Origin: a virus
DNA length: 44,375 bases
IMG/VR virus record: IMGVR_UViG_3300050821_004247
Location: 1-44,375 of that record
Direction: 5' to 3' (one strand)
Under the pieces are notes generated by a model. That model saw only the letters and a list, made by a program, of their open reading frames with translations, was not told the origin of the DNA and did not search any database. Positions 1 through 44,375 of this stretch are shown here, in pieces. Numbering within the stretch: position 1 is the first letter of the stretch; each line of letters begins with the position of its first letter. The position numbers and the translations under genes were made by a program.

Positions 1-22
1 CCGCGTCCGTGTAGGCGCTCAT
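1..22 (-). CDS. 5' end of small cysteine-rich protein that continues at 44375 if circular
   Basis: An ATG at 22-20 overlaps the stop of the gene at 19..357 by the ATGA arrangement used throughout this operon. It reads seven codons (MSAYTDA) plus one base off the window edge. Joined to base 44375 it continues in frame without a stop into the cysteine-rich gene at 44080..44375, giving a protein of about 105 residues. This is the main evidence that the window is a circular unit. The continuation is inferred, not observed. Confidence 0.6.
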
Positions 23-357
23 TCGCCGTCCTCCCGGTCGTAGCCGTCCGCCGTGCAACCCATCTGCCCGCACGAACCGCAGTAAGCCTCCCGTGCGAGT
101 GGCGCGACGTCCTCCGGATCGAACGTGAACCGAGAATCATCGCCGACCATGACGCAGACCACTCGGCCCGTGCGGACTTCTTCCGGTTCCTCGTCGTATA
201 CCCACTCGCCTGCGTCGTCGTCGTACCACTCGCAGGGTCCCGGTTCGGTTTCCCATCCCATCACGTACCAAGCGACCCCCCCGTGCCCGCGTACTGTGTA
301 CGCGTCCGCCGGGAATGTCTCGTCGTCCGTCTCGTAGGCCGGTCGTTTCGTTCGCAT
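19..357 (-). CDS. conserved phage protein, WYVMGWE / CGSCGQMGC type, unknown function
   Basis: A 112-residue acidic protein. The start at 357 is chosen over an upstream in-frame ATG because it follows the strong ribosome site GAGAGGACGAACC shared with other genes here. The N-terminal half carries GGVAWYVMGWE and an acidic tyrosine/tryptophan-rich stretch; the middle has GRVVCVMVGDD; the C-terminus has CGSCGQMGC, a possible zinc or metal knuckle. I recognise the general pattern from uncharacterised phage proteins but know no function. It lies in the minus-strand early-type cassette, with its leader carrying the repeated structured element at 358..483, and its stop overlaps the next gene start. 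Confidence 0.75.
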   Translation of the reverse strand: MRTKRPAYETDDETFPADAYTVRGHGGVAWYVMGWETEPGPCEWYDDDAGEWVYDEEPEEVRTGRVVCVMVGDDSRFTFDPEDVAPLAREAYCGSCGQMGCTADGYDREDGE

Positions 358-483
358 CTCGGTTCGTCCTCTCGATCGTTCCGGGCGGGCACCATTGCTC
401 GCCGGGCCGGGGCGGATCGCCGTCCGCCCTAGTCGCCTCACTAGTGCCCACCATCGCACGGCGGGCACCGATCAGACGGCTAG
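358..483 (-). promoter_or_regulatory. repeated structured leader/hairpin element, copy A
   Basis: Read on the minus strand it begins at the stop codon of the upstream gene (CTAGCCGTCT). It forms a 9-bp hairpin with the 7-nt loop GTGCGAT (444..468), then carries TGAGGCGACTA, a second 7-bp hairpin with loop CGGCGA (410..429), then CAATGGTGCCCGCC and the ribosome site GAGAGGACGAACC. Copies with compensatory stem changes occur at 43962..44083, partly at 43490..43551, and in degenerate form at 1065..1179. It may be a terminator/leader, an RNA processing site or an attenuator. Confidence 0.65.
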
Positions 484-1064
484 GACGCGGCGCGGACGCG
501 TTCCCGTTCCGCGTGCGTCCACAGCATGCGCTCGCCGTGCGCGAGTCCGTCCCGGATGCGCTCGCCGTTGTAGACGACGACGCGGTCCGCCGTGGCGTGA
601 CACTCGGACATCGCCGAGTCCGGACGGCGGACGTAGAGGCGGTCAATCTTGAGTGCGACGCAGACCCGCAGAGCGAAGTCCGCCCACGACGCGCACTCGC
701 CAGCACTCGCACGCGCCTTGTCCAGCGCACGGCGGACGGTCCGGAATGTCTCGGACATCGCCTTGACGTCCGATTCCCGCACGCGATGCTTTGCGAACTC
801 GAACTCCCACCCGTAGAGATCGCCCGGTTTCTCGATCTCGCCTTGTGCGGTTACGCGGAAGTCCTCTAGATCGAGTCCGTAGGGCTTCCGCATGCGGTAC
901 GCGTCGAAGCCACCCGCGTAGCTGAATGATACGCCGTCCTCGTCGCGTTCGTAGTCCGCCGCGTTCCCAAACGCCAAAACCGGGTGGCAGAATCCGTGCT
1001 CCCGGTCGATCCGTAGCCATGCGGCGCGGATGCGCGTTTTCGTCTCTGTCGTCTCGTCGGTCAT
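480..1064 (-). CDS. hypothetical protein, early-type cassette
   Basis: A 194-residue protein starting MTDETTETKTRI. The start at 1064 is set by the GAGAGGACGAACC ribosome site just upstream; a longer in-frame start at 1187 would translate the leader element and is rejected. The N-terminal half is rich in aromatic and charged residues (HGFCHP, FSYAGGFDAYRM, LYGWEFEFAKH), and the C-terminal half is helical and basic. No family is recognised. It is separated from both neighbours by copies of the repeated leader/hairpin element, unlike the tightly overlapping genes further upstream. Confidence 0.75.
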   Translation of the reverse strand: MTDETTETKTRIRAAWLRIDREHGFCHPVLAFGNAADYERDEDGVSFSYAGGFDAYRMRKPYGLDLEDFRVTAQGEIEKPGDLYGWEFEFAKHRVRESDVKAMSETFRTVRRALDKARASAGECASWADFALRVCVALKIDRLYVRRPDSAMSECHATADRVVVYNGERIRDGLAHGERMLWTHAERERVRAAS

Positions 1065-1179
1065 GTCGGTTCGTCCTCTCAGTTTCGGGCGGGCACCATT
1101 GCCCACGCGATCGCCAGCACTCGCCGAGTGTAGCGACCCGTACCCACCCGGCGACCCCGGGCGGGCACGGATAGCGCAC
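1065..1179 (-). promoter_or_regulatory. repeated structured leader/hairpin element, degenerate copy D
   Basis: On the minus strand, directly after the stop of the gene at 1180, there is a 12-bp hairpin with two G-U pairs (1140..1168, arms GTGCCCGCCCGG and CCGGGTGGGTAC). It is followed by a diverged CTAC...GGCGATC stretch, GGGCAATGGTGCCC and the same GAGAGGACGAACC ribosome site. The order of parts matches copies A and C, but the central sequence is diverged. Confidence 0.5.
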
Positions 1180-1566
1180 TCACTCACGGATCAAGGTTTC
1201 GGGGATCGCCTGCTTACCCGTTCCGACCGTCCGAAACGTGGCATGCGTCGCCGTCTCGATCGTCCGCCCGGTCCCGGACTGATAGAACCGGTCGGCTTTC
1301 CACGGGTTGAATGAGACACGGACCGGGGTCGCCGTCCCGGGGTCGCTACAGGGACATCGCGCGCAGTCGCAGACCGTCCCCTCTGCCCACGCGACGACCT
1401 TCCGCCGTCCCAGGCGACGCATGCGCGCTAGGGACGCGTCCGAGACGACGAACCGGACATCCGTGAGGCAGACACTCGCCGGGGTCGCGACGACGCGTCC
1501 CTTGACGGTTACGCTGTATCCGCCTCGGTGTAGGTTCCAGTGGACGCGGACGCGCGCCTCAGACAT
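1180..1566 (-). CDS. VRVHWNL-family phage protein, paralogue 1
   Basis: A 128-residue protein starting MSEARVRVHWNL. It is a clear paralogue of the protein at 1741..2097. Both share the N-terminal VRVHWNL, then A.VCL.D.RF.VSDA, a basic patch and aWvEGT.C.C, and N-P after a beta-type stretch near the C-terminus. Widespread phage proteins of unknown function have this architecture. Its start overlaps by 8 bases the end of the 61-residue gene at 1559..1744, so it is translated from one polycistronic message. Its stop is followed by the structured element copy D. Confidence 0.75.
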   Translation of the reverse strand: MSEARVRVHWNLHRGGYSVTVKGRVVATPASVCLTDVRFVVSDASLARMRRLGRRKVVAWAEGTVCDCARCPCSDPGTATPVRVSFNPWKADRFYQSGTGRTIETATHATFRTVGTGKQAIPETLIRE

Positions 1567-1744
1567 CGGACTGCTCGTAGGTTTGCGTGATGCGTGTCGC
1601 GCGGGTTTCGGCAATGGCTGCCGTGCGACCGTAGACCGTCGCGACAAGATCGCCCGTCCGCGTATCGTGGAGTTCGACGAAGAACGCGTCGTCACGGTCC
1701 TTGCTGAATTGACGGTATGTCTTGCCGATCCGGAGGCGGTTCAT
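1559..1744 (-). CDS. small hypothetical protein between two paralogues
   Basis: 61 residues (MNRLRIGKTYRQF...). The start overlaps the stop of the upstream gene by four bases (ATGA) and the stop overlaps the downstream start by eight, which supports a real gene in a translationally coupled operon. The sequence is mixed alpha/beta, with VELHDTRTGDLVATVYGRT in the middle resembling a short beta hairpin. No family is recognised. Confidence 0.65.
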   Translation of the reverse strand: MNRLRIGKTYRQFSKDRDDAFFVELHDTRTGDLVATVYGRTAAIAETRATRITQTYEQSDV

Positions 1745-2097
1745 CGAACCACCCGCGTGACGGGCTTGCGGTCCCGGTCAATCGAGAAATGGACGTGCAT
1801 CGCCTCGCGCACGTCCTCGCCGTCCGCCGTCCGGAACTGCTCATCTCGGAACGGGTTGTAGGTGACGAACGTGCCCGCATGCCCGCCGTCACAGCCGCAC
1901 GGCGTACCCTCTACCCAGGCATGCACCCACCGTCCGCGCTTCTTCCGACACATCTCGCGACCCGCGTCCGAGACAATGAAGCGCGCATCTCGCAGACAGA
2001 CGGCGGACGCGTACCGATACGCTCCCGGACGCGTGGGAAGGGTCCGGACAACAAAGTCCTTGCGGGTCAGGTTCCAGTGGACGCGGACGCGGCTCAT
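1741..2097 (-). CDS. VRVHWNL-family phage protein, paralogue 2
   Basis: 118 residues starting MSRVRVHWNLTRK. It aligns along its length with the product of 1180..1566 (VRVHWNL, VCLRDARFIVSDAG, HAWVEGTPCGC, TYNPFRDEQF), so the pair arose by duplication, with a small gene in front of each. Four-base ATGA overlaps link it to both neighbours. The function is unknown; the cysteines near the middle (CGCDGGH) could bind metal. Confidence 0.75.
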   Translation of the reverse strand: MSRVRVHWNLTRKDFVVRTLPTRPGAYRYASAVCLRDARFIVSDAGREMCRKKRGRWVHAWVEGTPCGCDGGHAGTFVTYNPFRDEQFRTADGEDVREAMHVHFSIDRDRKPVTRVVR

Positions 2098-2288
2098 GCC
2101 CACGCGTCCCACGTCACGGCGTACCCGCAACGCTCTGCCTCTAGCCCGTGACGGTCGCAGCAACGCGCTACGATCGTTCCCTTGGTTGCGGTCGCTGTCG
2201 CGTCCTGTCGGCAGAACTGTCCGGCGCGGTCCGCCTCGCAACGCTCTGTCGCCTCACAGAGCGCGGGTTCCTTGGTGTCGGTTGTCAT
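2094..2288 (-). CDS. small cysteine-rich hypothetical protein, first gene of operon
   Basis: 64 residues (MTTDTKEPALCEATERCEADRAGQ...). It has cysteines at C-x5-C, then FC and CC-x2-H, possibly metal-binding. The start has the GAGAGGACGAACC ribosome site ending four bases before ATG. It is the promoter-proximal gene of the overlapping set 2288 to 1180 and is preceded by a leader with a 7-bp hairpin (CGATCCG/CGGATCG). Confidence 0.7.
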   Translation of the reverse strand: MTTDTKEPALCEATERCEADRAGQFCRQDATATATKGTIVARCCDRHGLEAERCGYAVTWDAWA

Positions 2289-2367
2289 GTCGGTTCGTCC
2301 TCTCGGTGCCGATCCGCGTGAGTGCGGACGGATCGCGGACCCTTCGCCGGGGTCGCGATGGCTGTCT

Positions 2368-4315: not shown

Positions 4316-4567
4316 ATGAAGAATCGACTGATGCTTGCGGCGGGCTGCGCCGTCCTCTGGGCCGTCCCGGCGGGGGCGTGGGTGCAGCACCGCGCCTACA
4401 CGACGCACAGCGGGACCTACGTCGCCCCGCACATGCAGACCGCGCCGAACGGGACGCGGCTGGACAACTGGAGCACGCGGGGGAACGCGAACCCGTTGAC
4501 GGGGCGACGGGGGACGGAACCGGCGTATCCGATGCCCCACTTGCGTTCGGACGGGACTTACCGGTAG
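4316..4567 (+). CDS. secreted small protein with PHM.TAPNG...NWST.GN.NPLTG motif
   Basis: 83 residues. An N-terminal signal peptide (MKNRLMLAAGCAVLWAVPAGA) ends near residue 21. The mature part contains GTYVAPHMQTAPNG, then DNWSTRGNANPLTGRRGTEP. This matches a motif common in small bacterial secreted proteins of unknown function, in which PHxRTxPDG is followed by NxxxxGNVNPYTG and GT. The ribosome site GGGGGAG precedes the ATG. Such a host-type exported protein on a phage may be a moron acting on the envelope of the lysogen. Confidence 0.7.
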   Translation: MKNRLMLAAGCAVLWAVPAGAWVQHRAYTTHSGTYVAPHMQTAPNGTRLDNWSTRGNANPLTGRRGTEPAYPMPHLRSDGTYR

Positions 4568-20005: not shown

Positions 20006-20541
20006 ACACGATCAAGGTGACCGGCTCGGGCGACTTGCCCGACCGCGTGCGCGACCTCGAACAAGCCATCAACTACGGCGAGGTCGTGCTGCCGTTCACC
20101 GTGATCGGGGAAGTCGAGGGCGGGGGCGGGACGCAGGGACCGCCGGGACCACCGGGTGCCACGGGACCGACCGGCCCGACAGGACCGCAGGGCGCGCAGG
20201 GACCGGCGGGACCGCAGGGACCGAAGGGCGATCCGGGGGCGACGGGGAGCACGGGCGCGCAAGGGCCGAAGGGCGATCCAGGAGCGACCGGCGCGCAGGG
20301 GCCAGCAGGCACGACGGGACCGCAGGGACCAGCGGGTGCCGCCTCGACCGTGCCGGGACCGCCTGGTGCGACGGGACCGCAGGGACCACAAGGAGCGACC
20401 GGTGCGACGGGACCGGCAGGACCGACAGGATCGACGGGCGCAGGCGTGCCGGTGGGTGGGGCCACGAACACGGTGCTCACGAAGAACTCGGCCAGCGACT
20501 ACGACACGAAGTGGGCGCGTCCCGTGGCCTACTGGGGTTGA
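20002..20541 (+). CDS. collagen-like tail fibre protein
   Basis: 179 residues from GTG 20002. A short N-terminal domain (about 44 residues, helix [18 protein letters not shown]) is followed by about 34 Gly-x-y triplets rich in Pro, Thr, Gln and Ala, with one break (STVP) near two thirds, then a C-terminal [25 protein letters not shown]. Collagen-like triple helices occur as stalks in phage fibres. The triplets are coded by highly repetitive GC-rich DNA, which can expand or contract. Confidence 0.8.
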
Positions 20542-31197: not shown

Positions 31198-32055
31198 CTA
31201 CTCGCAGAGGTTGTAGATCGACAGGCACGTCGGCGTGTCGAGCAGCGGCAACTGATCTTCGTCCACCGACAAGAGGTAGCGCGCGACGTCATCGACACTC
31301 GGCGCACGGAGGAACTGCCCGGACTTCGTCTTGATCGGGATCGAGCAGTACCGCTGCGGGATGTAGTCGGCGCGGAACATCGTGCGCGGGCTGTCGGGAT
31401 TCCCGCCAGACTCGGTCGCAGCTTTTTCTACCGCGCGCAGGCGCTCGATCATCTCGGGCGTGTCCTTCAAGAGCACGCGCAGCTCGCGGTGGTTCACGAA
31501 GATGCAGGGCCAGCACCCGACCCGCCCCGCGCCGATCTTGTAGAGCGGGTTCGGCTCGATGCCGTGGCGGTCGTGGATGGCGAACACCTCCCGGGCGCTC
31601 CAGGTAAAGAGCGGGCGCTCGATCGTGTACGCGGGTCGGTAGTGCCCGGCCTCGCTGCCCTCGGGGACTTGATCGCGCGCACCGGCCCGGGTGCGCGGCA
31701 GGGATTCCTCGGCGCGGATGCCCTGGTAGAGCGTCACGTCGTCGTCGATCGACGCGATGTAGTCCCACAGCGGGAAGATTTTGAGTTCCTGCGTGCAGAA
31801 CCGGGTCGTCTTCCCGGGGATCATCTTCCGCCGCACGACCAAGTCCATGAACCCCTCGTACTTGGACGAGCGGAGGATCGTCAGATCGTGCGCGGCGAGG
31901 AACGTCTCGGCGGCACCCCAGATGTAGCCGTAGGTGAGCGGGTGCTCCCAGCCGGTGTCGGCGAACACGGCGGTGAAGTCGATGCCGCGCTCCTGGAGCA
32001 GCAGCGCAGCGGCGGTCGAATCCTTCCCTCCGGAGTAGGCGAGGACGTGCTTCAT
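31198..32055 (-). CDS. PAPS-reductase-like PP-loop enzyme
   Basis: 285 residues from MKHVLAYSGGKDSTAAALLL. The PP-loop SGGKDS (residues 8-13) binds ATP or adenylyl groups in the PAPS reductase / DndC-type family. ADTGWEHPLTYGYIWGA follows, as in that family, and GCWPC in the C-terminal half may contribute to an Fe-S or zinc site. The phage members are thought to act in sulfur transfer or nucleic-acid modification rather than sulfate assimilation. No other dnd-type gene is seen nearby, so the substrate is open. Confidence 0.8.
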   Translation of the reverse strand: MKHVLAYSGGKDSTAAALLLQERGIDFTAVFADTGWEHPLTYGYIWGAAETFLAAHDLTILRSSKYEGFMDLVVRRKMIPGKTTRFCTQELKIFPLWDYIASIDDDVTLYQGIRAEESLPRTRAGARDQVPEGSEAGHYRPAYTIERPLFTWSAREVFAIHDRHGIEPNPLYKIGAGRVGCWPCIFVNHRELRVLLKDTPEMIERLRAVEKAATESGGNPDSPRTMFRADYIPQRYCSIPIKTKSGQFLRAPSVDDVARYLLSVDEDQLPLLDTPTCLSIYNLCE

Positions 32056-32140
32056 GGATCGAGCCGACCGATGGAACGGGACACCCCCCCACTCCCCCCT
32101 GCTCCGCATACCCCGTCCACCGGTCGGATCGTCGAGTGCC

Positions 32141-32341
32141 TTACGGGGCGGGCAGACGGAGCGAGTGTGGCGACAGCCCCGCAACGGCAAGCAACCAGAA
32201 CAGCAACCAGAGCACGACCGCGATGATGACGACCGCGTTCACGATCTGCTTCATGCGCGCGTCCATCGGCAAGTACGTATTCACCAGCCAGAGCAGGACC
32301 CCGATGACGATCAGGACGACGACCAACTGGATCAAGTCCAT
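32141..32341 (-). CDS. two-TM small membrane protein (Thivi_2564-like)
   Basis: 66 residues. Two membrane helices (about residues 4-24 and 34-53) with a short central loop YLPMDARMKQIVN. The opening MDLIQLVVVLIVIGVLLWLV closely resembles the small Thivi_2564-type membrane proteins frequent in phages and bacteria. GGGGAGGACTGC is a strong ribosome site. A holin role is possible because two-TM topology suits class II holins, but the family function is unknown. Confidence 0.75.
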   Translation of the reverse strand: MDLIQLVVVLIVIGVLLWLVNTYLPMDARMKQIVNAVVIIAVVLWLLFWLLAVAGLSPHSLRLPAP

Positions 32342-34745: not shown

Positions 34746-34997
34746 ATGCATGAGGACGAGCGGAGTGGTGCTGCTGTGAGTCGGCGCGCGGTGCAGGCTG
34801 ACTTCTCGCCGGCCCTCGTCAGGCAAGTCGCGGGGATGGCCCGGAAGATTCTCCGGGAGCACCCGCCTGGGAAGGACGGCCCGCCATTCTCCCCGGCGCT
34901 CACGCGTCACGTCGTCAAGACGTTCGCGGCGATCGTCATCCATTCTGTCACCGTGGGCCTCGCCCACTCAGCCTCGCGTCGGCGACGCGAGCCGTAA
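34746..34997 (+). CDS. small hypothetical protein before integrase
   Basis: 83 residues (MHEDERSGAAVSRRAVQADFSP...). A strong GGGGGAGGAAC site lies before the ATG. Helical with SPALVRQVAGMARKILREHP repeated in style by FSPALTRHVVKTFAAIVIHS, suggesting an internal duplication of SPALxRxV. A hairpin GGCTGAC/GTCAGCC lies in the 83-base gap upstream. No family recognised. Confidence 0.55.
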   Translation: MHEDERSGAAVSRRAVQADFSPALVRQVAGMARKILREHPPGKDGPPFSPALTRHVVKTFAAIVIHSVTVGLAHSASRRRREP

Positions 34998-35016
34998 CGA
35001 AGGGATCGAACCGACA

Positions 35017-36042
35017 ATGGCATACGGCACGGGCCGCGTGTTTCTGCGCGGCACAACCTACTGGATTCAGTTCTCCGTGGGCGGGCGGACCGTCCGCGAA
35101 TCCGCCGACACCCCGGACCGGAAGGCGGCGCTGCAAGTCCTCGCCCGTCGCCGCATCGAGGAAGGCGATCACCCCGAGGCGCGAGCGGTGCAGGCGCAGA
35201 CCGTCACCGAACTCGTCGCGCTGGTGCTCTGCCGCTACAGCCGGAAGAAGCAGGCGAGCCTGCCGACCGCCGAGGGGCATGGCAAGGCGTGGCTCGCGGT
35301 GCTCGGCGGCGAGACGAAGCTCGGCACCCTCACCATGGCGACGCTGTCCGACGTCCGGGACGGCTGGGAGGACGACGAGTACGCCCCGGCGACGATCAAC
35401 CGCCGCCTCGCGTTCTTGAAGGTCGGGCTACGGCTCGCGGGCTTGAAGACGCTGATCGACTTCGCGGAACTCCGACTCCCGGAGGACAACGTGCGCGACG
35501 CGTACCTGTCACCCGGGGACTTCGCCCGTCTGTACGCTGTGATCCAGGCGTACGACGCCGATCTGGCGGACTACGTTGCATGGCTCTACGTGACGGGGAT
35601 GCGCCGGGGCGAAGCGGCGCACCTCGACTTCTCGATGCTCGACCGGCAGCGGTGGGTACTGCTCATCCCGGGCCGCATCCAGAAGCACCGCAAGCACCGG
35701 GGCATCGTGCTGGACGGGGTGATGCGCGACATCCTCGTCCGTCGCGTCGATGCCCGGGTGCGGGGGTGTGAGTACCTGTTTCATCGCGCGGGCGAGCGCA
35801 TCGGGGACTTCGCGAAGTCGTGGAAAACTTTGTGCTCGCGCGCCGGGCTGACGGCGATCCGCCCGCATGATCTGCGCCGGTCTGCCGTGACGAACTTCCT
35901 GGAGATGGGCTTCACGCCCAAGGAAGCGATGGAGATCACGGGGCACCGCACCTTGAGCGTGTTCACCCGCTATCAGCAAGTCATCGAGGAGTCGTTCCGG
36001 AAGAAGCTAGCGGCGATGGCGTTGCCGACGCTTGCCGCGTAG
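35017..36042 (+). CDS. int: tyrosine-type site-specific integrase
   Basis: 341 residues. It recombines attP with a host attB. Catalytic residues are visible: R196 (TGMRRGE), H284 and R287 (HDLRRSA), H310 (GHRTLSV) and Y319 (TRYQQ), in a C-terminal catalytic domain of about 180 residues, with an N-terminal arm-binding part (GTTYWIQFSVGGRTVRESAD) and an SAM-like core. The order and length are normal for phage integrases. The attP site with tRNA identity lies 1.35 kb downstream, and the 3' end overlaps the convergent gene at 36007. Confidence 0.93.
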   Translation: MAYGTGRVFLRGTTYWIQFSVGGRTVRESADTPDRKAALQVLARRRIEEGDHPEARAVQAQTVTELVALVLCRYSRKKQASLPTAEGHGKAWLAVLGGETKLGTLTMATLSDVRDGWEDDEYAPATINRRLAFLKVGLRLAGLKTLIDFAELRLPEDNVRDAYLSPGDFARLYAVIQAYDADLADYVAWLYVTGMRRGEAAHLDFSMLDRQRWVLLIPGRIQKHRKHRGIVLDGVMRDILVRRVDARVRGCEYLFHRAGERIGDFAKSWKTLCSRAGLTAIRPHDLRRSAVTNFLEMGFTPKEAMEITGHRTLSVFTRYQQVIEESFRKKLAAMALPTLAA

Positions 36043-36582
36043 CCGCCGGGCCGCACGCTTCTCTGCTGGGGCACTCGTCGCTGCGGCGGCGGGTGCCTTT
36101 TCTTTTGAGCGTCGTGCTCCTAGCGACCGCTTGCCGTTCGTCGTGATCGTGTAGCGCGCCGCGCTTTTCGTGCCCGTCATTAAGACGAGTCCCTGCTCCC
36201 GCAGCGCATGCATCGCGAGCTTGTTTTGCCGCTCGCCCGCGTTCATCACGGCGTAGATGCCCGGTCCCTTCATCGGCTTGGTCGCCTCGGCGAGCAGCTT
36301 CAAGGCGCGGAGCTTGACGTCCTCGCGGGCCTCGTCGGAGATGCGGGCACGTTTCGCATGGAGTGTGGTGCCGGCCTTCACGCCCGGCTGCTTCGGCGTC
36401 TTGCCGTTGACGCGCGTGCCGACGAGGAGCGCCCGGTAGAAGCGGCGCGCGTGCTTGTCGCAGGCGTCGAGCGCGGCAGTCTTAACCTTTGCTCCGCGCA
36501 GCGTGATCTCTGCGTGGGTGCTGGCGAACTCGGCCTTTCCTTTTGCCCGGCACCAGTTGCAGAGCAGTACGGTTGCTTCCAT
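36007..36582 (-). CDS. putative DNA-binding protein, zinc knuckle plus basic tail
   Basis: 191 residues from ATG 36582 after AGAAGGGAGC. N-terminal CNWC and CDKH (about residues 8-11 and 41-44) could form a zinc site. The middle resembles a winged helix (ALKLLAEATKPMKGPGIYAV...ALREQGLVLMTGTKSAARYT). The tail is highly basic (RRSKEKAPAAAATS, RRLRGKRRQRHRR). It overlaps the integrase 3' end by 36 bases. It may be a nucleoid-type or regulatory protein. Confidence 0.55.
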   Translation of the reverse strand: MEATVLLCNWCRAKGKAEFASTHAEITLRGAKVKTAALDACDKHARRFYRALLVGTRVNGKTPKQPGVKAGTTLHAKRARISDEAREDVKLRALKLLAEATKPMKGPGIYAVMNAGERQNKLAMHALREQGLVLMTGTKSAARYTITTNGKRSLGARRSKEKAPAAAATSAPAEKRAARRLRGKRRQRHRR

Positions 36583-37068: not shown

Positions 37069-37674
37069 ATGATGTGTGGGGGAGGCACGGCGCATCGGAC
37101 CCTCCGAGGCCACTGTGCCTGTTCGGTGTGCCTGTCTGCGGACTCCAGCCTGCGGACCTTCCCCCCCACCCCCCACCCCCCGTCCGGGCCGGTCTGGCAT
37201 GACGTCGGTCCGGACGGGGGACCGTCTGAATTGCGGTCAGACCGTCGTGCAGTGCGTGACCGGAGGGCAGTGGGTGGTCACGTCCTGAGTGGGGGTGTCG
37301 GCTCCCTCGCCGCGCCCCTGTTCGGGACAACTGGCACAAACCAGCACAGCCCCCATGCCGCCACCCCACCTAAGTCCCTGATTTTCCATGCGCCCAGGGT
37401 GATTCGAACACCCGACCTTCTGATTCGTAGTCGCCCGGTCGGAGAGGACGTTCGAGACTTCTCGCGCACTTACGCGCCGCGATGCTCAGGCAGAGCGCAC
37501 GAAAAGTCCCGAATTTCCCCCCCAAAAGACACAGAAAAGACACAGCCAGACTTCCCTAGAAAGTTTTGCCTCGCGCGCACCGTCTCCTGCGCGTGGGATG
37601 GCGCGTCTGGCGACGCGTCCCGGCCCGGTCCGTCCCCACCTCCCCGGATGGGGACGGACCTCCGGGTGGAGTGA
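37069..37674 (+). CDS. doubtful 201-codon frame crossing attP
   Basis: The frame starts MMCGGGTAHRT after a CGGAGGAACC site and a good promoter, and stops three bases before the next start. It contains CACSVC near the start and then the peptide APRVIRTPDLLIRS, which is the classical artefact of translating a tRNA on its opposite strand. It may be only the leader of the replication operon, with at most a short N-terminal peptide expressed. If real, integration would replace its C-terminal half. Confidence 0.2.
   Translation: MMCGGGTAHRTLRGHCACSVCLSADSSLRTFPPTPHPPSGPVWHDVGPDGGPSELRSDRRAVRDRRAVGGHVLSGGVGSLAAPLFGTTGTNQHSPHAATPPKSLIFHAPRVIRTPDLLIRSRPVGEDVRDFSRTYAPRCSGRAHEKSRISPPKDTEKTQPDFPRKFCLARTVSCAWDGASGDASRPGPSPPPRMGTDLRVE
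37389..37431 (-). other. attP: attP core: 3' half of tRNA-Arg(ACG)
   Basis: Read on the minus strand: anticodon loop CTACGAA (anticodon ACG), 3' anticodon stem TCAGA, variable AGGTC, T-arm GGGTG-TTCGAAT-CACCC with perfect pairing, acceptor TGGGCGC and discriminator A. The 5' half is absent: upstream bases do not pair with the anticodon stem and there is no D-arm or acceptor partner. A 3' tRNA half near a tyrosine integrase is the standard core for integration into a tRNA gene, which it restores. The host target would carry an acceptor 5' end GCGCCCA. Confidence 0.85.
37524..37545 (+). repeat. tandem 11-bp repeat, possible integrase arm sites
   Basis: AAAAGACACAG occurs twice head to tail, about 95 bases right of the attP core in an AT-rich patch. 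Short direct repeats at such a distance are usual for integrase arm-type or excisionase sites. Related words (GGCACAAACC, AGCACAGCC) lie left of the core at about 37330..37352. Confidence 0.5.
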
Positions 37675-41640: not shown

Positions 41641-42197
41641 TCCGCGTTCTCGGCATTGACCCCGGCCTCGACGGCGCGCTCGCCGTCCTCGATCTGGACC
41701 AGCGCGGCACGGTGCTCCATCTCCTCCAGGTCATCCCGACGCCGACCCTCACCGTCACCGTCAACAAGAAGAAGCGGCGCGACTACGACGTCCCCGGCAT
41801 GTGGCGGCTCATCGAGGACGCCGCCTACCCCGCCGATGTCTCCGTCGCGATGGTCGGGCTCGAACACCAAGGGCCGCGTCCGAAGGAAGGCGTCGTGTCC
41901 AGCTACCGCACCGGGCACGGCTACGGACTCTGGCGCGCACTCATCGTCGCCGCGCAACTGCCGCTCGCGATCGTGCAGCCGCAGGCGTGGCGGCGCGAGT
42001 TCGGACTGCTCAGAGCCGGGAAGCAGGCATCCGTGCGGGCAGTGATGGAGGGCTTTCCGGACTATCCGTCGTCGCTGAGTCGCCATGACGGTGCGGCAGA
42101 AGCGACGCTGATCGCCGCCTTCGTCGCGCGTCGGCGCGTCGTGCCCGATGCTCTGCCCGTGCCGCCGCCGCCCGCTCCAGAATCCCCGCAAGCGTAG
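41637..42197 (+). CDS. RuvC-like Holliday junction resolvase
   Basis: 186 residues. The RNase H fold is marked by IDPGLDGALAVLD (D8), GLEHQGPRP (Glu near residue 80), and HDGAAEATLIA with Asp near residue 150. This is the acidic set of RuvC/phage resolvases that resolve branched DNA before packaging or after recombination. It ends the replication operon. Its last 62 codons, including the HDGAAEA motif, lie opposite the end of the gene at 42010. Confidence 0.85.
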   Translation: MIRVLGIDPGLDGALAVLDLDQRGTVLHLLQVIPTPTLTVTVNKKKRRDYDVPGMWRLIEDAAYPADVSVAMVGLEHQGPRPKEGVVSSYRTGHGYGLWRALIVAAQLPLAIVQPQAWRREFGLLRAGKQASVRAVMEGFPDYPSSLSRHDGAAEATLIAAFVARRRVVPDALPVPPPPAPESPQA

Positions 42198-43014
42198 TGT
42201 CCACCCACGGGCGGGGACCGTGCCCCGCCCGCCACTTGACCAGTGCCGGGATGAGGGCACGCGCGTTCGCGGCCTCGGCGCGGGCCAGGCGGACGAGGAG
42301 ATAGGCGATCGCCTCGTCACCAACGCCGAAGTCCCGCCCGCTCTGGTAGCGTTTGGCGAGGCGCGGGCGACGGAGCAACGTGATCCGCGCGAACTGGGAC
42401 GACGGCAACCACCAGTGCAGCCGGATCAGCGCGTCGTTCCCCGGGGTCCGGCCGCGCGTGTCGGTCGGGTTCCGAAAGCACGCCAGCACCACCCAGGCGT
42501 GGTTCGCCTCGTAGGCAATCACCCGGAGCGCGACGGCCCGGGGTCTGACCGGGCACCCATCCCCGATCTTCTCGACGCACGCCGGGCTACAGACGGGCAC
42601 GCCCCAGAGATCGAACTGCGCGGATTTCCCGCACCCGTGGCGGGCACAGCGCAGCCCAAAGGGCTGATTGTATCGCCACGGTGCGCCGGGCAGACACCGC
42701 TTGCACCAGATGCGCCGACTCGGTCCGCGCGTGACCCGCATCACGCAGTGATGGACGCGGCACCAGAGACGCGGATCGACCCCGGGCGGGCACTGCGGTT
42801 CCACGTAGCCGTGCGCCTCGGCGGACGGGTGGATGGGGGCGGGCACCAGAGCACGGGCGGGCACCGCAGACCGGGGACCCGGCGGGCGTCCGCGCCGCCG
42901 TCGCGGTCCTTCGAGGTGGGACCAGTCCGGCGCGGGTGGGGTGCCCGCCGCCTCGTCACGCAGGACGCTTACGATGAACTGCGGCGGGCCGGCGGGCTTC
43001 CCGGGGTCCGACAT
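42010..43014 (-). CDS. zinc-finger-type hypothetical protein
   Basis: 334 residues from MSDPGKPAGPP. A disordered Pro/Arg N-terminus is followed by a cysteine-histidine region (LWCRVHHCVMRV, IWCKRCLPGAP, LRCARHGCGKSA, VCSPACVEKI), enough for two zinc knuckles. Then comes a helical part (HAWVVLACFRNP, RIHWWLPSSQFARITLLRR) and a basic, low-complexity end. The end overlaps ruvC by 188 bases in convergent orientation. The cysteine set suggests nucleic-acid binding; no family recognised. Confidence 0.6.
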   Translation of the reverse strand: MSDPGKPAGPPQFIVSVLRDEAAGTPPAPDWSHLEGPRRRRGRPPGPRSAVPARALVPAPIHPSAEAHGYVEPQCPPGVDPRLWCRVHHCVMRVTRGPSRRIWCKRCLPGAPWRYNQPFGLRCARHGCGKSAQFDLWGVPVCSPACVEKIGDGCPVRPRAVALRVIAYEANHAWVVLACFRNPTDTRGRTPGNDALIRLHWWLPSSQFARITLLRRPRLAKRYQSGRDFGVGDEAIAYLLVRLARAEAANARALIPALVKWRAGHGPRPWVDTTLAGILERAAAARAEHRARRADARRRRRSASLLPHRHGDSATTDSPESPPSLPARMPASRL

Positions 43015-43255: not shown

Positions 43256-43504
43256 CTAGAGCGCCTTCGTTTTCGGGTTCGCTTTGAGGGGTCGCAGCCG
43301 GACGAACATGTCGGGACCCGGGCCGGACCCGTGCCACTGGGACCCGTCCGCCATGGTGACGCGGACGTACAGGCGGGCACCGCCGAAACCCACGCGGCGG
43401 GCACGGGTCGCCGTCACGTCGCCGAGGTATGCGCCCGCCAAGCTCACGATGGTTCGTGCGTCGGCGGACAGGTATGCCCGCAGGGGTTCCACTAGTCGCC
43501 TCAT
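43256..43504 (-). CDS. small hypothetical protein
   Basis: 82 residues from MRRLVEPLRAYLSADART. GTG 43492 is an alternative start, as TGAGG would then be its ribosome site. Central beta strands (GARLYVRVTMADGSQWHGSG, PDMFVRLRPLK). It directly follows hairpin copy B of the repeated element, whose TGAGGCGACTA gives its first codons. Function unknown. Confidence 0.6.
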   Translation of the reverse strand: MRRLVEPLRAYLSADARTIVSLAGAYLGDVTATRARRVGFGGARLYVRVTMADGSQWHGSGPGPDMFVRLRPLKANPKTKAL

Positions 43505-43551
43505 GCGTGCCCCCGGATCGCACCCGGGGGCACAGTGAGACGGCTAGCTAC
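43490..43551 (-). promoter_or_regulatory. repeated structured element, copy B
   Basis: Minus strand: CTAGCCGTCTCACT follows the stop of the 43548 gene, then a perfect 10-bp hairpin with 7-nt loop GTGCGAT (43507..43533), then GCATGAGGCGACTAG. CTAGCCGTCTCA and TGAGGCGACTAG also pair with each other in 11 of 12 positions, so one extended stem encloses the inner hairpin. Same loop sequence as copy A with different stem bases. Confidence 0.7.
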
Positions 43552-43961
43552 TCGCCGTCCGTCTCGTCCTCGTCCTCGATACCGAGATCGTCCGCGTTGA
43601 CATCGAGTCCGAGTGCTTCCAACTGCTCGAAAACGTCCCGCTCGAACGCGCAAAACGCCAGCGCGGACCAGTTGACCGCGCCGTCCGCGCACACGCCGTC
43701 CGTCCCGAAGTCGTCCACGTAAGCGGACTCGTTGTCCGAAAAGAGTAGCGTCTCGATCGCGAGTCCCGTGTAGATGACGCGCGAGTGTCCGTCGCACGTC
43801 TCGTGGACGTGTTCGAGTAGCCATTCGCGGAGATGCGGCTCGTCCTCGGCCCGCGCCGTTTTCGCCTGCTCGTAGAGATCGGTCGCGCATCCCCGGACGT
43901 CGTCGTAGTAGTCCACCCGGAGGACGTTCAACGCCCCCTGTCGTTCGCTGTCGGTTGCCAT
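43548..43961 (-). CDS. acidic hypothetical protein, early-type cassette
   Basis: 137 residues from MATDSERQGALNVLRV; GGGAGCGAATCGAC precedes this ATG, and an upstream in-frame ATG would translate leader copy C. Strongly acidic (ending DDLGIEDEDETDGE), helical (DDVRGCATDLYEQAKTARAE, LREWLLEHVHETC), with SRVIYTGLAIETLLFSDN and ALAFCAFERDVFEQLEALG. The length and acidity would suit a DNA mimic or regulator, but the acidic tail is the only evidence. Confidence 0.7.
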   Translation of the reverse strand: MATDSERQGALNVLRVDYYDDVRGCATDLYEQAKTARAEDEPHLREWLLEHVHETCDGHSRVIYTGLAIETLLFSDNESAYVDDFGTDGVCADGAVNWSALAFCAFERDVFEQLEALGLDVNADDLGIEDEDETDGE

Positions 43962-44083
43962 TGTCGATTCGCTCCCTATCGGTTCAGGCGGGCACCATGC
44001 CCGCGTGCATCGCCGGATCGCCGTCCGGCGTAGTCGCCTCATGCGTCCGCCCGCGCGGGCCGGGCGGACAGTGAAACGGCTAG
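43962..44083 (-). promoter_or_regulatory. repeated structured leader/hairpin element, copy C
   Basis: Minus strand: CTAGCCGTTTCACT at the stop of the upstream gene, then a 9-bp hairpin with 7-nt loop (44045..44069), TGAGGCGACTA, a 7-bp hairpin with loop CGGCGA (44011..44030), a 5-bp mini hairpin GGGCA-TGG-TGCCC (43990..44002), and then the ribosome site. Pairs 1 and 3 of the second stem are C-G here and G-C in copy A, a compensatory change. Confidence 0.7.
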
Positions 44084-44375
44084 GAGTCCTCCGGTTCGTC
44101 GCCGTTTGCCAGGTAGACGACGCAATCGACGCACGCGTCGTCGAAATGGACGATCCGTCCGTCTAGGATCGCGTGCCAGTGGTAGCGGTCGCCTCCGAGA
44201 TGCGACCCGCAGATACCGCACGCGTGCCAGCTAAACGACCCTTCGTCGCACGCCGTGCCCGCCTCGTGTGCCGCGTCGTACTCGGCGACGCTAGCGTAGC
44301 CGTGCGCGTCCGCGCAGTCCGCGCACCCCGGACACAGTCCCGTGGATACCGCGTCGAGTCCGGTCAGACCGGACT
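44080..44375 (-). CDS. small cysteine-rich protein, cut by the window end
   Basis: The frame is open from the window edge to a TAG at 44082..44080: 97 full codons ending HFDDACVDCVVYLANGDEPEDS. Cysteine pairs CPGCADC, CGIC and CVDC plus the HWH histidines suggest one or two zinc sites. The N-terminal codons fit the start at 1..22 if the genome is circular. The last 19 bases of the window (44357..44375) are a palindrome inside the coding frame. Confidence 0.65.
   Translation of the reverse strand, partial: SGLTGLDAVSTGLCPGCADCADAHGYASVAEYDAAHEAGTACDEGSFSWHACGICGSHLGGDRYHWHAILDGRIVHFDDACVDCVVYLANGDEPEDS

Follow-up and report, generated by a model that had tools for sequence, protein, structure and literature searches.

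A structured-RNA family at gene ends and a companion leader at gene starts in the leftward gene cluster of a tailed phage

What are the hairpin-rich stretches that separate the small leftward genes of this phage, and do they act as DNA or as RNA? A preliminary description had named four minus-strand intergenic regions (358..483, here element A; 43490..43551, element B; 43962..44083, element C; and 1065..1179) and ascribed to all of them one design, selected as nucleic acid and possibly a regulatory RNA, a processing site or a terminator that lets genes be inserted as cassettes. The window analysed here is the entire IMG/VR virus record IMGVR_UViG_3300050821_004247, 44375 bases with a GC content of 67%. 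The regions are made up of two modules, a hairpin at gene ends (HpI) and a leader at gene starts; the former constitutes a real, narrowly distributed structured-RNA family that is new to the collections searched and has the leader as its companion.

Two modules in one leftward cluster

An open reading frame that starts at position 22 on the minus strand exits the left end of the record and resumes in frame from the right end, running to the TAG at element C. The two ends therefore join, and the elements near both of them belong to a single leftward gene cluster in which A and C are neighbours. Read around the circle on the minus strand, the order is leader D (2362..2286), four small genes with overlapping ends (2288..1180), hairpin X with a leader, gene 1, element A, genes 2 and 3, element C, gene 4 and element B (Table 1). 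No element lies between the overlapping genes; the elements mark the start of a new non-overlapping gene unit or the end of the cluster. The cluster genes might be called early, judging by position and size only. Within the cluster, the stretch 1741-2097 (minus strand) matches Pfam Phage_L5_gp82, and the gene ending at 1180 is a paralogue at 40% identity.

Elsewhere the record carries genes of a tailed phage (terminase, head–tail adaptor, major head protein, an Erf-like annealing protein and an exonuclease) together with a replication initiator, a RuvC-like resolvase and a phage-type integrase, and with this gene set, integrase included, the phage is presumably temperate. The parts of the window tested, among them the early region, had no DNA match in annotated phages, and two proteins of the early region had no similar ones there. 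A phosphoadenosine phosphosulfate reductase-like gene of auxiliary type (phrog_424; 31198-32190, minus strand) adjoins the recombination genes.

Table 1. Genes, hairpins and ribosome-site words of the leftward cluster, with the leader type before the integrase gene. Bit scores are from covariance model R1; z is the folding z-score.
Feature	Position	Strand	Remarks
Gene 1, 194 aa	480..1064	-	no PHROGs or Pfam match
Gene 2, 112 aa	19..357	-	no Pfam match
Gene 3, 105 aa	start 1..22, continuing in frame 44375..44080 across record ends	-	
Gene 4, 137 aa	43548..43961	-	no PHROGs or Pfam match
HpI copy A	core 431..481; base through CTAG to 429..483	-	TAG stop of gene 1; 61.4 bits; z -6.3
HpI copy B	43494..43545	-	just after gene 4 TAG; 58.7 bits; z -6.6
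HpI copy C	44032..44081	-	TAG stop of gene 3; 45.2 bits; z -4.4
Hairpin X	1126..1182	-	TGA stop of preceding gene; strongest of 55 stop-adjacent folds, -44 kcal/mol
HpII, cluster's first gene (D)	2338..2354	-	GACCC-CGGCGAA-GGGTC
HpII, gene 1	1118..1130	-	CACT-CGGCG-AGTG
HpII, gene 2	410..429	-	GGGCGGA-CGGCGA-TCCGCCC
HpII, gene 4	44011..44030	-	CGCCGGA-CGGCGA-TCCGGCG
HpIII, first gene (D)	2312..2329	-	GTCCGC-ACTCAC-GCGGAT
HpIII, gene 1	1089..1106	-	GTGGGCA-ATGG-TGCCCGC
HpIII, gene 2	384..403	-	GGCGAGCA-ATGG-TGCCCGCC, one A.C mismatch
HpIII, gene 4	43988..44004	-	GCGGGCA-TGG-TGCCCGC
Ribosome-site word, first gene (D)	2286..2304	-	GAGAGGACGAACCGACATG
Ribosome-site word, gene 1 start	1062..1080	-	GAGAGGACGAACCGACATG
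Ribosome-site word, gene 2 start	355..373	-	GAGAGGACGAACCGAGATG
Ribosome-site word, gene 4 start	43959..43976	-	GGGAGCGAATCGACAATG
Leader type before integrase gene	34973..35019	+	CTCGCGT-CGGCG-ACGCGAG hairpin, then GGGATCGAACCGACAATG

The whole layout, namely CTAGCCGTYT at the stop codon, a hairpin, TGAGGCGACTA, a hairpin with a CGGCGA loop, GGTGCCCGCC and a ribosome site, is found at A and C. Region B has the first hairpin only, and 1065..1179 has a different hairpin with the leader part. A further leader, D (2286..2362), was missed previously; it is the fourth in the window and heads the gene cluster. The same separation is found in a distant relative, IMGVR_UViG_3300010358_000007 (loci L042 and L043; hereafter G1), the sole relative found with this region and the carrier of three HpI copies, h1 to h3. 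HpI and the leader hairpin HpII are adjacent at A, C and h1; D and the first gene of the G1 cluster have a leader with no HpI upstream, and B, h2 and h3 are HpI alone, so what appeared to be one design is two modules that meet where an internal unit follows another. With one mismatch allowed, the window contains TGAGGCGACTA exactly three times, and GGTGCCCGCC is found nine times against 0.37 expected. The latter was considered as an independent stoperator-like DNA site and dropped, for although enriched it falls within HpIII, HpI of A, hairpin X and coding sequence.

HpI keeps a close register with the stop codon: its first bases are the AG of TAG in A, C and h2, h1 starts one nucleotide past a TGA, B two nucleotides past a TAG, and h3 lies directly behind h2. 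It is found without a leader only at a cluster end (B, the final HpI of the leftward cluster, with no leader behind it; h2 and h3 in G1).

The leader precedes six genes across the two phages, the first gene of each cluster included, and comprises HpII, which lies 61–65 nt upstream of the ATG, then a variable third hairpin (HpIII) and a fixed ribosome site. From the first loop base of HpII to the ATG there are 61 nt at D, 62 at X, 65 at A, 62 at C, 61 at the first G1 gene and 62 at the gene behind h1. All six cluster genes with a GAGAGGACGAACCGACATG-type ribosome word have HpII, with a loop of CGGCG, CGGCGA or CGGCGAA, and the exchange of C-G for G-C at two positions of the second stem between A and C had been read correctly. 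The word GAGAGGACGAACCGACATG has four occurrences within three mismatches against 0.01 expected, the site at C being a variant (GGGAGCGAATC). A padded leader alignment, itself fitted to the stems, is 97% paired with a score of 0.80; folded singly, the leaders have unremarkable energies (z -0.6 to -1.7). A fairer test is the background count: with both strands of the two phages taken together, CGGCGA occurs 338 times, and the 24 sites flanked by at least four consecutive pairs include all six leaders. A seventh site among those 24 lies upstream of the integrase gene, also with GGGATCGAACCGACAATG. The candidate leader peptide ATGGTGCCC was dropped, the ATG being missing at some sites.

Between the integrase and replication genes, the other strand of GCGCCCAGGGTGATTCGAACACCCGACCTTCTGATTCGTAG (37390-37430, plus strand) resembles the 3' half of a tRNA (anticodon loop CTACGAA, Arg-ACG-like); it is a likely attP core that could name the host.

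Pairing and covariation in the stop-codon hairpin

From its base, HpI consists of a lower stem of ~8 bp, an internal loop, an inner stem of 9–12 bp and a loop of 6–7 nt, which reads GTGCGAT in four of the six copies. At the base AGCCG pairs with CGACT except for a third-position C.A mismatch that is invariant across all six copies; the boundary words are therefore two arms of one longer stem, and the first hairpin is ~50 nt long with this mismatch near its base. The inner-stem sequence is different in every copy.

In a hand-made alignment of the six copies (A5), fitted to the stems and omitting two lower-stem positions, 3 (the C.A) and 9 (G.G in four copies), all 108 scored cells pair and both sides change in 9 of 20 pairs. 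Covariation scores 0.447, where shuffled alignments give 0.138 and none of 500 reaches the observed value, and sliding the alignment drops the paired fraction to 33–44%. Since the alignment was fitted to the stems, independent support is taken from the held-out search described below and from folding, in which the first hairpins have z-scores of -4.0 to -6.6. X, B, C and A are within the six strongest of 55 folds at predicted stop codons. A covariance test had been proposed as the point at which the idea of conserved pairing could fail; when run, it favoured pairing, and three held-out copies were recovered from the second phage.

The kinds of pair bear on the level of action. The inner stems contain 54 Watson–Crick and 6 G.U pairs and no A.C, and the lower stem adds 4 G.U and no variable A.C; all ten variable non-Watson–Crick pairs are G.U on the coding strand and would be A.C on the opposite one, which favours coding-strand RNA over a DNA dyad. 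Selection on nucleic-acid structure, as claimed earlier, is upheld by this pattern and by the covariation, and an RNA-level function of the elements is well supported.

It is accordingly very unlikely that the elements act as DNA, either as protein-binding dyads of the ESAS type or as folded single-strand recombination sites that move cassettes, even though the intervening genes are mostly unrelated between the two phages and the conserved outer arms around a variable inner stem, placed between gene units, superficially recall integron attC sites. The attC cores GTTRRRY/RYYYAAC are absent from all six HpI copies, the integrase here is of phage type, and the G.U pairing favours RNA; inner stems that differ per copy and pair fully, with G.U but no A.C, are nothing that a DNA-binding dyad requires, and the asymmetric C.A is identical in 6/6 copies. 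The nearest published pattern found is that of SAS and ESAS in cluster K mycobacteriophages such as TM4 and Adephagia, where some of the non-structural genes carry a fixed word at their start codon and about half of these sites have an upstream inverted repeat, departures from which give little support for base-pairing (PMC3203893). The likeness is one of a start word with an upstream inverted repeat. In ESAS, however, the sequence of the repeat is constant, as it also is in the Adephagia copies that we folded, and putative -35/-10 promoters lie within it (PMC11373665); against this 17-bp constant repeat with its sigma-70-like promoter, the inner stems described here differ yet pair, and no promoter hexamers were called. 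The 13-bp SAS GGGATAGGAGCCC has 14 matches in the window at up to three mismatches where 16.3 are expected, none of them at the leaders described.

A GC-rich hairpin directly past a stop codon also invites comparison with an intrinsic terminator or attenuator, the third function proposed at the outset. That identity is highly improbable for HpI: the 8 nt after the hairpin hold 0–3 T and no T-tract, whereas the same phage has an ordinary T-tailed hairpin 3' of its integrase (36069..36106). A scan for terminators and promoters called no HpI as a terminator and no sigma-70-type promoter near the copies, the genes following A and C included. A regulatory RNA and a processing site, the other two functions proposed, both fit the structure.

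Reach of the family

G1 is colinear with the window, at ~69–77% DNA identity over the larger matches. Its hairpins, in syntenic place at L042:5059-5110 (h1), 4408-4462 (h2) and 4342-4393 (h3), were first found by sequence reading, and a covariance model for which A, B and C were the sole input returned exactly these three as its top hits (E 5e-12, 1e-9 and 1e-9), followed by the opposite strands of the same hairpins and by unrelated places at E 0.003 or worse.

What lies between the elements differs largely from one phage to the other: the genes there are mostly unrelated, with a 33-residue patch (gene 3 against G1 4987-4592, 55% identity) as the sole shared part, and a flanking open reading frame (42010-43014) is shared at 41% identity. 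On this comparison the modules outlast the genes between them, a pattern compatible with the exchange of gene units between modules. The earlier suggestion of cassette insertion finds only indirect backing in this; no insertion event, recombination signal or gene exchange was seen between window and G1.

The HpI family rests on two phage genomes. Scanned for the exact pattern of the full outer arms, viral contigs gave no match, and the exact pattern of arms plus loop matched only G1 in IMG/VR; such exact searches would miss diverged copies. The same arms-plus-loop pattern matched once among GTDB representative genomes (L049), at a place that does not fold as the HpI hairpin and was set aside as chance. 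A model search found no element in 76 viral and genome loci collected through other patterns, including contigs with the ribosome-site word GAGAGGACGAACCGA or CGACT..GGACGGCGATCC, or in three further contigs, structural-side fragments with portals 93–94% identical. Distant resolvase relatives (L090-L092) had none, no prophage relative was found in GTDB genomes via the portal, and Rfam had no match in the window at the gathering cut-off.

Proposed processing of a polycistronic mRNA and its alternatives

By analogy with T7, the elements most likely belong, as a variant, to the mRNA processing signals already known from phages. The segmentation of an operon by processing hairpins is textbook knowledge for T7 and, to our knowledge, little recognised in uncultured or temperate phages. 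The intercistronic RNase III sites of T7 are named R0.3, R0.5, R1, R1.1 and R1.3. Cleavage by RNase III at five sites turns the early precursor of ~7,000 nt into mono- and dicistronic mRNAs (PMC4858673). The early intercistronic regions of T7 were folded with the same program as HpI, and the architectures are close: above a mismatch (C.A in R0.3), R0.3 and R1 both have 5 bp, an internal loop and 9 bp, and below it they have 3 bp and 4 bp, respectively; the corresponding series in HpI is 2–5 bp, a C.A mismatch, 5–7 bp, an internal loop and 9–12 bp or slightly more. The irregular hairpin of T7 type, with a lower stem, an internal loop and an upper stem of about one turn, is found in A, B, C, h1, h2 and h3. 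Upper stems in T7 run to ~9–13 bp, R0.3 and R1 have the 1x1 lower-stem mismatch, and R0.5 and R1 start at the stop codon as HpI does; in both phages the hairpins are on a single strand, and HpI too sits between same-strand genes. The likeness is architectural only: covariance model R1 had no match in the T7 early region and common descent with the T7 sites was not found; the C.A mismatch common to T7 R0.3 and HpI may be coincidence. HpI also differs from the T7 sites in its GC-rich stems, its conserved outer arms and the repeated structured leader that accompanies it, a feature that we do not know to have been described for T7.

On this analogy we hold with moderate confidence that the HpI copies are R-site-like processing hairpins of RNase III type that divide a polycistronic mRNA and leave caps at the new ends. 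The elements would be parts of the mRNA of the leftward operon, presumably a single transcript, and a cellular double-strand RNase, probably of RNase III type, would cut HpI in or near the internal loop, splitting the long transcript into mRNAs of one to a few genes. The upper half of HpI would probably stay on the upstream mRNA as a 3' cap, and the downstream mRNA would begin a few nucleotides before HpII, giving it a leader of HpII, HpIII and fixed ribosome site that resembles the leader of the first gene. Each gene unit would thereby be self-sufficient for stability and translation and, in such a model, could be exchanged without disturbing its neighbours. The structure, the covariation, the strand, the position at stop codons, the constant leader geometry and the differing genes in between are observed features, and a leader at cluster-first genes that have no HpI upstream is as expected if processing recreates the primary leader.

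RNase III needs no conserved sequence, and the conserved sequence of HpI therefore counts against the processing model. That AGCCG and CGACT are kept, and often the GTGCGAT loop as well, could mean that a specific protein binds there or that the copies descend from a recent common ancestor. Since outer arms and loops are conserved beyond the needs of RNase III, a serious if rather unlikely rival is that HpI and the leader are binding sites of a phage- or host-coded RNA-binding protein, either a translation regulator or an antitermination factor, which controls the whole operon with no cleavage. Such a protein would account for AGCCG/CGACT, the invariant C.A and the frequent GTGCGAT being kept while the stem between them varies, and also for the invariant CGGCG loop at a near-constant distance from the ATG. 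No candidate protein was identified, and the place of HpI at the stop codon and its absence before cluster-first genes are a better fit to 3'-end handling than to translation control. The put antiterminator RNA of HK022 has two adjacent stem-loops in the nascent phage transcript, and HpI plus HpII at A and C are arranged in this way. It lies downstream of early promoters, one per early transcript (PMC9378689); HpI, in contrast, lies at internal and terminal stop codons with no promoter called nearby, and HpI and HpII also occur apart.

A more speculative and unlikely arrangement is a post-transcriptional regulon dedicated to this group of phages, in which an RNA-binding protein or nuclease reads HpI (AGCCG/CGACT, the C.A mismatch and the loop GUGCGAU) at stops and the CGGCG leader hairpin at starts; the units, perhaps that of the integrase too, would be processed and switched together, and new genes would join by landing between modules.

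The very stable folds at stop codons, and the presence of HpI where no leader-bearing gene follows (B, h2 and h3), would be expected of an uncut 3' stabiliser or insulator, a stable hairpin past each stop that blocks exonucleases or shields the gene. We regard this as quite unlikely, as a simple stem suffices for blocking, which calls neither for an irregular stem in two parts nor for a conserved mismatch and an internal loop.

In these two phages gene ends are marked by a new structured-RNA family whose covariation can be measured, and gene starts by a second one, around genes that are mostly unrelated. If confirmed, the pair would show how phages keep newly acquired small genes uniformly expressed, and its models would be of use in locating the borders of gene units in related genomes.

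The region 1065..1179 is a case apart. Hairpin X starts at the TGA of the upstream gene and is like HpI in place and size but different in sequence; the region lacks both boundary words and has the leader part. With the HpI family model X reaches 16 bits (E 0.28), and with so low a score it was taken as an analogue or a very diverged member and left out of the family count. The 5' arm of HpII of gene 1 overlaps the 3' base of X, so the two hairpins compete, and it is possible that their exclusion constitutes a switch. Within 1118-1182 (minus strand), CACTC can pair with the GAGTG at the stop codon or with the GAGTG in the leader hairpin, the two pairings being mutually exclusive.

Two other repeats were observed in the window. 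Copies of the word GTGCCCGCC in one orientation are strongly clustered from 42639 to 1168 across the record ends (minus strand), in hairpins and coding sequence alike. In the structural region, 20141-20432 (plus strand) holds an array of GGACCG-type copies, spaced mostly by multiples of 9 bases and collagen-like (Gly-X-Y) in appearance.
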